A stretch of 64,000 bases of DNA, taken from NCBI RefSeq assembly GCF_027000115.1, contig NZ_JALTON010000018.1, positions 1 to 64,000 on the forward strand. The letters are read 5' to 3'. The position numbers were made by a program, and so were the translations under genes. This DNA is from Thiohalobacter sp. GTDB taxonomy: Bacteria > Pseudomonadota > Gammaproteobacteria > Thiohalobacterales > Thiohalobacteraceae. The first letter of the stretch is position 1. Each line of letters starts with the position of its first letter. The notes under the pieces are model-generated. The model worked only from the letters and a program-made list of their open reading frames with translations. It ran no database searches and was not told the origin of the DNA. Of the stretch, positions 13,974-17,937 are shown one piece after another.

Positions 13974-14001
13974 AAAAAAACCCCGGCCGGAGTGGCCGGG
14001 G
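13974..14001 (-). terminator. Intrinsic terminator-like hairpin, minus-strand orientation
   Basis: CCCCGGCC (13981-13988) pairs with GGCCGGGG (13994-14001). The A7 tract at 13974-13980 makes this a hairpin followed by U7 when read on the minus strand. No minus-strand gene feeds into it. It may protect the ATPase gene from antisense transcription or end an unannotated minus-strand RNA; for the plus strand it lacks a U-tract. Confidence 0.55.
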
Positions 14002-14235
14002 CAAGCCTCACAGGGGTGGAGGAGTACATACCCTGTCAGTCACGCGGGATCGGGACGCCTGCCAGGAAGCCCGACTCCCTGTGCTTCCGCTGTACTTCCA
14101 TGGACGAGGCCTTTTCACGATTTATTCCCTCGCCTGCCGCACCACCCCACCGCCACGGCACCCTGTGGAATAATGTCCCCACGGCGCCCGTCTATTTCGC
14201 AGCGAGACGCCGAACCCTGGGCCATACGGGTAACG

Positions 14236-14805
14236 ATGATGAAACTGGTGAATTTCTTCTGCCGGAGCCAGGAGTTCCGGAAGCGCCTCGAGGGCAACCG
14301 GGACCGCCTGTACCGGATCGCGTACTCCTGGTGCCACGATGCTGCCCTGGCGGATGACCTTACCCAGGAAGCCATTGAAAAGGCCTTGAAGAAGAGCGGC
14401 CAGCTGCGCGATCCCGGGGCCCTGGACACCTGGCTGTTCAGCATCCTCAACAACTGCTGGCGGGATCACTTCCGGCGCTCGAAGGATACTGTCGATATCG
14501 ACGAGATCCCCTTCACCAGTGATTCCACGCCGGAAGAGGAAGGCCACAAGCACCAGGTGGTCACGGCCGTCCGTGAGGCGATCGCCACCCTGCCCAACGG
14601 TCAGCGCCAGGTCCTGACCCTGGTCGATCTGGAGGGCTGCTCCTACATCGAGGTCGCCAACATTCTCGGCGTCCCGGTCGGCACTGTCATGAGCCGCCTG
14701 TGCCGGGCCCGCCGCGCCCTCAAGGCGCGACTCATCGACTCCGAACTGGCGCCCGGGACAAGCGTAACCGAGCCGCAGAACCATCGGATCCGGAGGATCA
14801 AGTGA
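14236..14805 (+). CDS. ECF-type RNA polymerase sigma factor
   Basis: A 189-residue sigma-70 family protein with only regions 2 and 4. Region 2 (about 20-80) contains NRDRLYRIAYSWCHDAALADDLTQEA and a DTWLFSILNNCWRD stretch. Region 4 (about 115-170) contains LPNGQRQVLTLVDLEGCSYIEVA, followed by a GVPVGTVMSRLCRARRAL recognition helix. It would direct polymerase to an ECF promoter set when released by its partner. Its TGA overlaps the next ATG (TGATG), so it is translationally coupled to the anti-sigma gene. The start is the first of two tandem ATGs before KLVNFF. It is unclear which promoter drives the pair. Confidence 0.9.
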   Translation: MMKLVNFFCRSQEFRKRLEGNRDRLYRIAYSWCHDAALADDLTQEAIEKALKKSGQLRDPGALDTWLFSILNNCWRDHFRRSKDTVDIDEIPFTSDSTPEEEGHKHQVVTAVREAIATLPNGQRQVLTLVDLEGCSYIEVANILGVPVGTVMSRLCRARRALKARLIDSELAPGTSVTEPQNHRIRRIK

Positions 14806-15569
14806 TGACGCTCGATCGAAGCATCTCGGAAGAGCATCTCAACGCCTTCGTCGACAACCAGCTCGACGCAGACGAAAAGAGCCGTATTCTCGGCGCCATC
14901 AACAGCGACGAGGACCTCAGCCGCCGGGCCTGCGAGGTGCGGCGCCTGCGCGAGCTGGTCCAGCATGCCTACGATTACCCCCCCCGACCGGCCCGCGAGC
15001 ACCTGGCGACCCGGCGGGCGAACCCCTGGATCCAGGGCGTCGCCGCCATGCTGCTGCTGGCGCTGGGTGCCCTGATCGGGTGGGTGGGCCATGGCCAGCG
15101 GACACCCGAGGCGGCACTGCAGACCCAGGCCATGTACCTGGACGAGGAAAAGGCCTTCCAGACCGCCAGCATCGCCGAGGCGCCGGTGGCCCGGAACGGT
15201 CGCAAGATCCTGCTGCATCTCAGCAGCGGCGATCCGCAGAAGATCGAGGAGGCCCTCAACACCGCCGAGGGCCTGCTGCGCACCTACCGCGCCAAGCACC
15301 TGCCGGTCGAGGTGGAGCTGGTGGCCAACGCCGGCGGCCTGAACCTGCTGCGTGCCGACGTCTCGCCCTTCGCCGACCGGGTGCGTACCCTGCAGGAGGA
15401 ATTCGAGAACATCACCTTCCTCGCCTGCCAGACGGCCATGAACCGTCTGCTCCAGCGCGAGCACATGGACAACCTGCCGCCACTGCTGCCGGAGGCGCTG
15501 ATCACGCCCAACGCCCTCGAGGAGATTCTCACCCGCCTCCAGGAAGGGTGGGTCTATGTGAGCGTCTGA
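14805..15569 (+). CDS. Membrane anti-sigma factor with C-terminal DsrE-like domain
   Basis: A 254-residue protein in three parts. Residues 1-70 resemble anti-sigma N-terminal domains (HLNAFVDNQLDADE, followed by a charged helical region) but lack the zinc-binding Cys/His set of ZAS domains. Residues about 75-95 form one transmembrane helix (WIQGVAAMLLLALGALIGWVG). Residues about 132-253 look like a DsrE/YchN-type domain: KILLHLSSGDP, VEVELVANAGGLNLLRAD, ITFLACQTAM with Cys208, and a final LQEGWVYVSV strand. DsrE-fold proteins carry or sense sulfur in many bacteria. With a single pass and a cytoplasmic N-terminus, the DsrE-like half would be periplasmic. Role inferred: it sequesters the coupled ECF sigma factor until a signal reaches the C-terminal domain. 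Confidence 0.78.
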   Translation: MTLDRSISEEHLNAFVDNQLDADEKSRILGAINSDEDLSRRACEVRRLRELVQHAYDYPPRPAREHLATRRANPWIQGVAAMLLLALGALIGWVGHGQRTPEAALQTQAMYLDEEKAFQTASIAEAPVARNGRKILLHLSSGDPQKIEEALNTAEGLLRTYRAKHLPVEVELVANAGGLNLLRADVSPFADRVRTLQEEFENITFLACQTAMNRLLQREHMDNLPPLLPEALITPNALEEILTRLQEGWVYVSV

Positions 15570-15675
15570 GCCGTCTCGTGGCTCGGACGTTCCGGGGCGC
15601 CAAGCATCCAGCGCCCTCTTCGGCCGACTGGCCCGGCCCGCGTCGGATAACGCGAATTGATGCAACCCCAAATAC

Positions 15676-15704
15676 TTGATCTTTTCACTCAGGATCTATA
15701 TATT
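15676..15704 (+). promoter_or_regulatory. Sigma-70-like promoter of the SOR-like gene
   Basis: TTGATC (15676-15681), a 17-bp spacer and TATATT (15699-15704) lie in a distinctly AT-rich stretch, about 42 bases before the start codon. Spacing is optimal and both hexamers are near consensus. An ECF-type promoter could also exist in this gap but I cannot identify one. Confidence 0.6.
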
Positions 15705-15745
15705 AGAATCCACTTATAACCTTATACAGGATTCAGGAGGTCGAC

Positions 15746-16198
15746 ATGAGTGGACTGATCGCCAATTTCCCCGCTGACGGCGTGGTAACCGTCAATCGCG
15801 TGATTCTGAAGCCGGAGTACACGGTGGATGATCTTCAGGAGCGCGTGGCCCTGTTGTGTGAAAACGTCAAGACCTACCATTCCGACACGGGTTTCGTGGG
15901 CGGCTTCGTGTGCCTGAACAGCGGTGCTGTATCCAACGAGGGCTCGACCGTGGGCCAGGCCGTGGAAAGCCCGCTGAAGGGCAAGGAAGCGCTGATCGTG
16001 ACCTTCTGGAACAGCTTCGAGGATCACGAGGCGTCTCACCGCAGCGAAACCTTCCAGCCGCTGTTCCGGAAGGTGCTGGAGCTGTGCGAGAACGGCAACG
16101 AGGAAATTGCCTACGAAATGCTGTGGTCGGGCAAGGCCTATGACCCCGAGGCCGCAAAGGCCGCGCGCGAGGCCAAGGAGAAGTACGCCGCCGCCTGA
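15746..16198 (+). CDS. Short SOR-like (sulfur oxygenase reductase) ferredoxin-fold protein
   Basis: A 150-residue soluble protein with no signal peptide. I compared it from memory with archaeal SOR (308 residues). Cys38 followed by a His45...GFVGGF segment corresponds to catalytic Cys31 and its GFVGF neighbour. TFWNSFEDHEASH matches the TFWxxWxDHExxH segment, giving His94 and His98. Glu124 in AYEMLW matches the third iron ligand. Spacings are close (56 against 55 and 26 against 24 residues). So the mononuclear iron site and active cysteine of the SOR N-terminal half appear retained in a half-length protein of the dimeric alpha/beta-barrel (ABM) superfamily. An AGGAGG five bases before the ATG suggests strong translation. 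A plain antibiotic-biosynthesis-monooxygenase-like protein is the alternative. Confidence 0.6.
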   Translation: MSGLIANFPADGVVTVNRVILKPEYTVDDLQERVALLCENVKTYHSDTGFVGGFVCLNSGAVSNEGSTVGQAVESPLKGKEALIVTFWNSFEDHEASHRSETFQPLFRKVLELCENGNEEIAYEMLWSGKAYDPEAAKAAREAKEKYAAA

Positions 16199-16216: not shown

Positions 16217-16251
16217 GAAAGGGCGGGCCCTGCAAGGGGTCCGCCCTTTTT
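16217..16251 (+). terminator. Rho-independent terminator after the SOR-like gene
   Basis: AAAGGGCGG-type arm (from 16217) pairs with CCGCCCTTT (to about 16249) around a GCCCTGCAAGGGGT loop, followed by a T-run. Correct position 19 bases after the stop codon. The A-rich 5' flank may make it weakly bidirectional for the convergent radical SAM gene. Confidence 0.85.
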
Positions 16252-16281
16252 CATTGGCCGTCCCTGGTGCAGTATGCGGGT

Positions 16282-17937
16282 TCAGGCCCCGGCCGCCGTC
16301 CAGGCCCTGACGCCGTCGGTGGCCCGCCGGCCGGGACCACCGCGACGTTCGGCGGCTGTGCGCCGCTCGTCGCCCTGCGGCACCATCGCCGCCAGCTGCC
16401 GCCGGTCGCCGCAACGGCGGCGATCGCTGCGCCGGCGCCGTTCCTGCGGTGCCTCATGGAAGCGGAACGGCACCGACTGGGCCGCACCCAGCCGGGTCAT
16501 GATGAAGGGCACCGGAAACACCTCGATGTATTCCTCGGGCAAGGCGGTCAGCCGCGCCTTGAAGGCATCGGGCGCGAACAGCATGGGGATGATGTTGTTG
16601 TAGTAGGCGGCCTTCGGCGTCATGCGCAACAGGTCGCCGTCCCAGCCGACGAAATCCAGCTCGGCCAAGGCCCGGATCAGGTGGCCATACACCTCGGCGA
16701 TGTCCACGCCATACTTGAAGGCCAGCTCGTTGCGGCTGACGCAGGTAAAGCGCAGCTTGCTCGTCAGTTCGCGGCAGAAGTCCAGCTCCGGGTCCAGTCG
16801 GTCGATGGTCGCCACCGGGATGCGGCCGGCATCGATCGCCTCGTAGTAGGACTTGAGGCTGCCGATATTCTGATAGGGCGTGGCGGGCGCGTAACCCTGG
16901 GCGTTGAGCCCCAGACCCAGCAGCGGCAGGTTGTCCCAGCGCCGGACCTGATGGGTATAGGCCGCGCGTTCGGGGTCGATGAACACGTTCTGCAGCACCG
17001 GCTCGAAGCCGTGCCCGGCCAGCAGCCGCTCGGCCCGCGCGAACTGGCGGATCTTGTACTCGTAGAGTTCATCCTTCGGCGGTTCGAAGTTCTGCTTGGT
17101 CTGGCTGCGCTGCTTGTCCAGGGCATAGATGGACACGCTGGGCACACCCAGCGCCACGAACCGCTCCAGGGTATCGGTGAGCGCGGCCTCGTCCTCGCCA
17201 TCGAAGCCGTACATGGTATCGACGTTGACGTTGCCGATGATCTCCACGGCATCGGCCAGCTCGCGTTCGGCCTCGGCCACGGAGTAGTGCCGGTTGAGTC
17301 CGGCCAGCAGCCGCTCGTCCAGGGTCTGGATGCCGTAGCTCAGGCGATTCACGCCCCAGCCGCGCAGGCGCTCCAGCTTCTCGCGCCCAAGCGTGCCGGG
17401 CGCGGCCTCGATGGTGATCTCGGCGTCGGGCGCCAGATCGAAGCGCTCGTGCAGGGCAGTGAAGATACGTTCCAGCAGGGCATCGTCGAGAAAGGTCGGG
17501 GTGCCACCACCGAAGTAGATGGACTCGCAGGTCTGGCCTGCCATCACCTCGCGGTACATCTCCATCTCGCGCAGCAGATAGCCGACATATTCCGCGGCCC
17601 GGTCGATGCCCTTGCCGGGCAACACGGCGTAGTAGCAGAACTTGCACAGAGTCTTGCAGAAGGGGCTGTGCAGGTAGATGGCGTAGCGGTCGGGAATGAT
17701 GGAGGTGCCGCTGAACAGCTCGGCGGCTGTTTCCGGTGCCGCCGACTTGCCCAGCAGCGGCGGCGGAAAGCTCCAGTCGAAGCAGGGGAAGAAATCGTTC
17801 TGGATCCTGAGCAGGGGGGTGAGGCGCTCCTTCAGCGTCTCCAGGTCGGCGCGCAACAGCCCTCCGCTCTCCGCCCCGACCTCATGGGCGCCAATGTATC
17901 TCGACTTCTTGTTGAAACAATCGCTGTAGTGCTGCAT
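16282..17937 (-). CDS. HemN-family radical SAM protein (coproporphyrinogen III dehydrogenase-like)
   Basis: A 551-residue protein. The radical SAM cluster motif CX3CX2C (Cys94, Cys98, Cys101 in FCKTLCKFCYY) is followed by ESIYFGGGTPTFLDD, TIEAAPGTL and GVNRLSYGIQTLDERLL blocks of the HemN/HemW family. The C-terminal HemN domain region reads KLRFTCVSRNELAFKYGVD. The last 45 or so residues are an arginine-rich tail (RRRRSDRRR, ERRTAAERRGG, GRRATDG). The start ATG at 17937 has AGGAGG at ideal spacing. Oxygen-independent coproporphyrinogen oxidase activity is possible, but family members also include heme chaperones and heme-degrading enzymes. Transcribed convergently with the SOR-like gene. Confidence 0.8.
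   Translation of the reverse strand: MQHYSDCFNKKSRYIGAHEVGAESGGLLRADLETLKERLTPLLRIQNDFFPCFDWSFPPPLLGKSAAPETAAELFSGTSIIPDRYAIYLHSPFCKTLCKFCYYAVLPGKGIDRAAEYVGYLLREMEMYREVMAGQTCESIYFGGGTPTFLDDALLERIFTALHERFDLAPDAEITIEAAPGTLGREKLERLRGWGVNRLSYGIQTLDERLLAGLNRHYSVAEAERELADAVEIIGNVNVDTMYGFDGEDEAALTDTLERFVALGVPSVSIYALDKQRSQTKQNFEPPKDELYEYKIRQFARAERLLAGHGFEPVLQNVFIDPERAAYTHQVRRWDNLPLLGLGLNAQGYAPATPYQNIGSLKSYYEAIDAGRIPVATIDRLDPELDFCRELTSKLRFTCVSRNELAFKYGVDIAEVYGHLIRALAELDFVGWDGDLLRMTPKAAYYNNIIPMLFAPDAFKARLTALPEEYIEVFPVPFIMTRLGAAQSVPFRFHEAPQERRRRSDRRRCGDRRQLAAMVPQGDERRTAAERRGGPGRRATDGVRAWTAAGA

Follow-up and report, generated by a model that had tools for sequence, protein, structure and literature searches.

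A conserved ECF sigma factor pair in Thiohalobacter with a predicted periplasmic DsrE-like domain on its anti-sigma factor, and an adjoining SOR-like gene apparently outside the module

DsrE-like proteins are known chiefly as cytoplasmic components of sulfur relay, and small RNAs are known outputs of RpoE envelope-stress regulons. In the RpoE–RseA and AlgU–MucA systems, the anti-sigma factor is anchored in the membrane by one helix, and its N-terminal part is a helical domain in the cytoplasm. ECF sigma factors connected with sulfur have also been described. In Sinorhizobium meliloti, RpoE1 and RpoE4 (ECF26) are sulfite-responsive, autoregulated and co-transcribed with an anti-sigma gene, and in response to sulfur compounds they control a small regulon including a secreted protein (PMC3511301). 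In Arcobacter, ECF sigma factors affect sox genes (PMC3445524). An earlier, sequence-only reading proposed a sulfur-responsive sigma module that was, to its knowledge, undescribed; sulfite-responsive ECF sigma factors are on record in S. meliloti (PMC3511301).

The window analysed here is a stretch of 64,000 nucleotides of Thiohalobacter sp. (contig NZ_JALTON010000018.1). As the sequence-only reading had it, the genes for an ECF sigma factor, an anti-sigma factor and a protein resembling sulfur oxygenase reductase (SOR) follow one another on the same strand; the genes upstream of the sigma gene are ilvE, glnE and a gene for a PilT/PilU-family ATPase. The features considered are as follows.

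13974-14097, minus strand: predicted sigma-dependent small RNA of about 120 nt (5' end approximate), promoter then terminator
13974-14002, minus strand: intrinsic terminator of the predicted small RNA
14005-14027, minus strand: conserved C/U-rich block of the predicted small RNA, GTACTCCTCCACCCCTGTGAGGC, possible seed
14102-14128, minus strand: divergent ECF-type promoter copy, GGAATAAATCGTGAAAAGGCCTCGTCC, one mismatch
14167-14194, plus strand: ECF-type promoter before the sigma gene, GGAATAA-N15-CGTCTA, exact motif
14236-14805, plus strand: ECF sigma factor gene, 189 aa, regions 2 and 4 (Pfam, NCBIfam)
14805-15569, plus strand: membrane-anchored anti-sigma factor gene, 254 aa
15198-15566, plus strand: DsrE-like domain (aa 132-254), predicted to be periplasmic; Cys208 (codon 15426-15428) and Trp249 are invariant
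15671-15706, plus strand: promoter of the SOR-like gene, TTGATC-N17-TATATT (promoter-like site 15676-15704), overlapped by an IscR type-1-like box at 15672-15696
15746-16198, plus strand: half-length SOR-like gene, 150 aa, outside the sigma module
16218-16253, plus strand: terminator-like hairpin after the SOR-like gene (site 16234-16248)
16282-17937, minus strand: gene for a HemN/HutW-like radical SAM protein, running towards the SOR-like gene; this convergent pair recurs in G003:C148 (L095)

Our main reading, to which a joint probability of roughly 0.8 is given, is that the sigma and anti-sigma genes form an autoregulated pair of the anatomy set out below and that the SOR-like gene stands apart from this pair.

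The sigma factor matched Sigma70_r2 (PF04542, 9.5e-15) and Sigma70_r4_2 (PF08281, 4.5e-17), both above the Pfam cut-off, and TIGR02937 of NCBIfam (7.6e-27). The presence of Sigma70 regions 2 and 4 only, the length of 189 aa against about 190 expected, the adjoining cognate anti-sigma gene and the autoregulatory promoter motif all agree with membership of the ECF group. The overlap claimed for the two genes amounts to one common base (TGA/ATG at 14803-14807). A total of 77 anti-sigma genes, 74 from a first set and three added by tblastn, were inspected together with their surroundings, and a sigma gene adjoined the anti-sigma gene at every one of these loci, in support of the functional pair that had been proposed. 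The orthologous pair is present in all 10 family relatives, usually with groEL after it, and a full-length anti-sigma homologue was found in 56 of the 274 genomes sampled across the class. On the anti-sigma tree the window falls in a clade of 13 members (99/99), nine of which are followed by groEL/groES; the remaining four are L075 and L076, which both stop at contig ends, L077, and the window itself. Since groEL neighbours dominate this clade, the SOR-like neighbour of the window pair is regarded as derived.

The promoter motif GGAATA-N14-18-CGTCT was detected upstream of 39 of the 74 homologous sigma genes; among other genes it preceded 4 of 1028 (Fisher 1.5e-46). In the 2.65-Mb window genome the exact motif gave three matches, one of them at 14167-14193, before the sigma gene, and the reversed control gave none; in the relatives the strict scan gave few matches outside the sigma loci, and several of these look coding. 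Judging from this distribution, the sigma factor appears to autoregulate its operon through the motif at 14167-14194. The motif is clean, and therefore the regulon should be predictable and testable.

At 33 of the 77 loci a DsrE-like gene lies divergent from the sigma gene, with a porin gene next in 30 of the 33; 13 of these 33 divergent genes carry the same promoter motif, and 32 of the 33 products have an N-terminal hydrophobic stretch, as predicted for secreted proteins. The window pair belongs to a different branch from these loci, the clade of 13 members. The window genome itself contains a second pair (G000:C39:92025-93958, L080), with a porin gene and the gene of a DsrE-like protein, predicted to be secreted, in divergent orientation to it. 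The motif GGAATAAAACCACCCGCCAGGTTCTCTA lies upstream of this divergent DsrE gene, and a looser form of the promoter motif picks up the site at C39:93420. Two sigma/DsrE-anti-sigma pairs stand in tandem at L200:5069-8023 and at L203, flanked on either side by a DsrE-like gene, and in another branch of 10 loci in all (L228, L233, L230, L211 and L242 belong to it) the DsrE-like gene is not divergent but lies behind the anti-sigma gene in the same orientation.

The anti-sigma factor consists, in this order, of a helical domain predicted to be cytoplasmic (aa 1-57), a membrane helix (aa 76-94) and a DsrE-like domain (about aa 130-254). In a structure model of low confidence (mean pLDDT 45), N-terminal helices were placed at residues 9-16, 22-34 and 36-57 (pLDDT about 57-74); profile comparison of the N-terminus with MucA/RseA gave a weak match (E 0.10-0.13), and zf-HC2 was matched in 16 of 20 family members, below the Pfam cut-off. 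The membrane helix has a hydropathy peak of 2.1, with four K/R residues before it and one after. By the positive-inside rule a single membrane helix with the N-terminus inside is predicted, and the DsrE-like domain is probably located outside the cytoplasm. A profile of 20 anti-sigma sequences matched the DsrE/DsrF-like structures of MTH1491 (PDB 1L1S; 1.4e-16, residues ~128-247) and ST0148 (PDB 2PD2; 1.1e-5), the match spanning the whole C-terminal domain. The DsrE family PF02635 was found by Pfam in three of the 20 homologues (best 7.9e-5) and gave no match at E 1 in the window anti-sigma factor alone; because of this silence of Pfam on the window protein itself the domain is named DsrE-like, and the DsrE assignment of the sequence-only reading is upheld in this form, by profile to 1L1S. 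Cys208 and Trp249 are invariant in all 77 anti-sigma homologues, and Cys43 is found in 59 of the 77.

With this domain order, the cytoplasmic helical domain would keep the sigma factor at the membrane, while the single membrane helix would put the DsrE-like domain, and with it the one invariant cysteine, on the periplasmic side. There the DsrE-like domain would be altered by a signal, for which a reactive sulfur species or some other modification of the Cys208 thiol is the most plausible candidate, and the sigma factor would be set free, whether through regulated proteolysis or through a change of conformation. Transcription by the freed sigma factor would then proceed from 14167-14194 for its own operon and from the divergent promoter, 14128-14102, for the small RNA of about 120 nt; in other lineages the divergent target would be the predicted-secreted DsrE-like protein, usually with the porin next. 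The chemistry of the fold together with the invariant cysteine makes a sulfur or thiol signal plausible, and a sulfur signal is proposed here tentatively, at somewhat less than even odds. Further doubt attaches to the wider proposal that these loci represent a class of Gammaproteobacterial ECF switches, in which a periplasmic DsrE-like domain would read reactive sulfur through one invariant cysteine and the divergent output would be a secreted DsrE-like protein or, in the family of the window, a sigma-dependent small RNA.

The serious rival to a sulfur signal is envelope stress or misfolding, the DsrE-like domain then being structural or protein-binding and its cysteine structural. The weak RseA/MucA-like N-terminus, the groEL/groES neighbours in the window lineage, and the small RNA and porin outputs, which resemble those of RpoE-type envelope-stress regulons, all point in this direction; the invariance of Cys208 throughout the 77 homologues, however, and the DsrE-like nature of the cognate secreted protein, which carries an FxAC-type motif matching that of the anti-sigma factor in 31 of 33 cases, argue for the chemistry of the fold. 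An envelope-stress signal is possible, and as an account of this anti-sigma factor it is held to be doubtful.

On the minus strand, the divergent promoter, the conserved C/U-rich block and the terminator occur in this order in seven family genomes, namely the window and those of L068, L069, L070, L071, L075 and L076, the last six having divergent sites equivalent to that of the window. The block has the form GTACTCCTCCACCCCTGTGAGG in the window and L068-L071, its core CTCCTCCACCCCTGTGAGG is common to all seven, and it sits immediately 5' of the terminator; the 5' half of the predicted RNA drifts while the block is conserved. With one mismatch allowed, the block is present in a single copy in the window genome, G001 and G004, and in none of 366 other genomes of the class sampled. 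The locus is absent from genus g3 (L072-L074), and the RNA gave no Rfam match at the gathering threshold. At L068:5203-6020 (G004) REP-like palindromic units, GTAGGAGCGGCCTCC-GGCCGCGAT, are repeated between the divergent promoters.

These features predict a sigma-dependent small RNA divergent from the sigma gene, an element absent from the sequence-only reading. By its composition the C/U-rich block could pair with Shine-Dalgarno-like sequences. A search with the block's complement revealed no target site that was both convincing and conserved; the sole such site common to six genomes was GGGGTGGAGCAGT, which presumably belongs to tRNA-fMet. The block lies right behind the PilT-family gene, and together with the terminator it might be a mere 3' element of this PilT/PilU-family gene with no small RNA at all. 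This reading is unlikely, as the T-run is found on the minus strand only, the same strand has a sigma-type motif some 100 nt upstream in the seven genomes, and conservation of the C/U-rich block ahead of the hairpin far exceeds that of its flank.

The protein encoded by the third gene resembles SOR only in part. It scored weakly against SOR in Pfam (E 0.0063; PF07682, 15.8 bits against a cut-off of 25) and in NCBIfam (NF047630, 18.2 against a cut-off of 400), and its length is 150 aa against about 310; because it falls short in both length and score it is termed SOR-like. The SOR-like profile matched the SOR structure 6m35 at 1.3e-5, and the alignment covers the N-terminal half of this enzyme, with three iron ligands kept (PDB 6m35; PMC7398979): His94, His98 and Glu120, which do not vary among 19 homologues, align with the SOR ligands His86, His90 and Glu114 (PMC7398979). 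It differs from SOR (PDB 6m35) in being half as long, in scoring below both cut-offs and in its cysteine, the invariant Cys38 aligning one position off the essential Cys31. A fold search with a single-sequence model (mean pLDDT 65) gave no informative match; SOR was absent among the matches listed, which is uninformative either way. Long-type homologues of the gene are 73-90% identical, and the window genome also holds a shorter paralogue (G000:C2:67778-68152, L062), which shares about 38% identity and retains the His/His/Glu positions.

A promoter and a terminator of its own had been claimed for the SOR-like gene, and both are present as a promoter-like site (15676-15704) and a terminator-like site (16234-16248). 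SOR-like genes commonly have TTGACT-type promoters overlapped by an IscR type-1-like box. By the type-1 consensus ATASYYGACTRWWWYAGTCRRSTAT (PMC6599224) and a threshold of 19 of 25 positions, a box of at least 19/25 was found in 29 of 44 SOR-like promoters, against 12 of 952 other genes; the box of the window matches at 18/25, or 72%, which is inside the 68-76% of Pseudomonas iscR sites (PMC6599224). A strict pattern built from SOR-like promoters also matches the iscR promoter in two relatives. This promoter type suggests that the SOR-like gene is tied to iron-sulfur status. In 13 of 44 loci the SOR-like gene directly follows a gene for a DegP-type protease, and in 12 of 44 an Hsp20 gene lies within the fetched stretch. 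Several Gammaproteobacteria carry the run Hsp20 - DnaJ - Hsp20 - DegP - SOR-like (L096:2044-6067; also L164, L103 and L187), inside which the SOR-like gene retains its own IscR-type promoter. The SOR-like family, with its iron ligands and IscR-type promoter, is a separate lead.

Conserved synteny of the three genes, a check set beforehand, failed: an SOR-like gene was found near one of the 77 anti-sigma genes, namely that of the window, and in family relatives with both genes the pair and the SOR-like gene are never syntenic. In G001, G004 and G006, whose assemblies comprise one or two contigs, hundreds of kb separate the two genes. Membership of the SOR-like gene in a sulfur module, as claimed earlier, fails also on promoters, the sigma motif being found in none of the 44 SOR-like promoters and an IscR-type box in its place, and the three-gene module was rejected on both counts. 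G003 shows the same convergent arrangement of the SOR-like and radical SAM genes, yet there the SOR-like gene is preceded by DegP; a rearrangement that cut the SOR-like gene off from DegP and joined it behind the anti-sigma gene would explain the window, and we infer that the adjacency there looks like such a local event. The anti-sigma genomes (56) and the SOR-like genomes (38) among the 274 share 22, with an odds ratio of 8.2 uncorrected for kinship; as this is above chance, a shared lifestyle or an indirect link is possible. That all three genes form one sulfur-responsive module, the sigma factor controlling the SOR-like gene, is very improbable, for although the genes adjoin on one strand, both families co-occur across the 274 genomes and read-through is possible because no plus-strand terminator was found between the anti-sigma and SOR-like genes, an SOR-like gene is missing near 76 of the 77 homologous pairs, its promoters lack the motif, it has its own sigma70-type promoter with the IscR-type box, and in relatives it often stands behind Hsp20/DnaJ/DegP genes.

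No description of a DsrE-type anti-sigma factor was found in the open-access literature, and an earlier one may exist in subscription papers or in supplements on ECF classification. If the sulfur reading is true, the pair offers a concrete candidate for periplasmic sensing of sulfur species, conserved across many Gammaproteobacteria; the basis of this candidate is the membrane anti-sigma factor with a predicted extracytoplasmic DsrE-like domain, accompanied elsewhere by a porin and by a DsrE-like protein that is predicted to be secreted. Unlike MTH1491 and ST0148, the DsrE-like domain of the window is part of a protein that also comprises an anti-sigma domain and a membrane helix, and it is predicted to be extracytoplasmic. 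The predicted membrane-anchored design resembles that of RseA and MucA, but in sequence the likeness is confined to the weak N-terminal match, and the outer position is taken by a DsrE-like domain that carries an invariant cysteine. With RpoE1 and RpoE4 of S. meliloti, whose target is the sulfite dehydrogenase gene sorT and for which no DsrE-type anti-sigma factor is described in the text available (PMC3511301), the window pair shares the plan of an ECF sigma factor that appears autoregulated beside its anti-sigma gene, and it differs from them in having a predicted small RNA as its divergent output.
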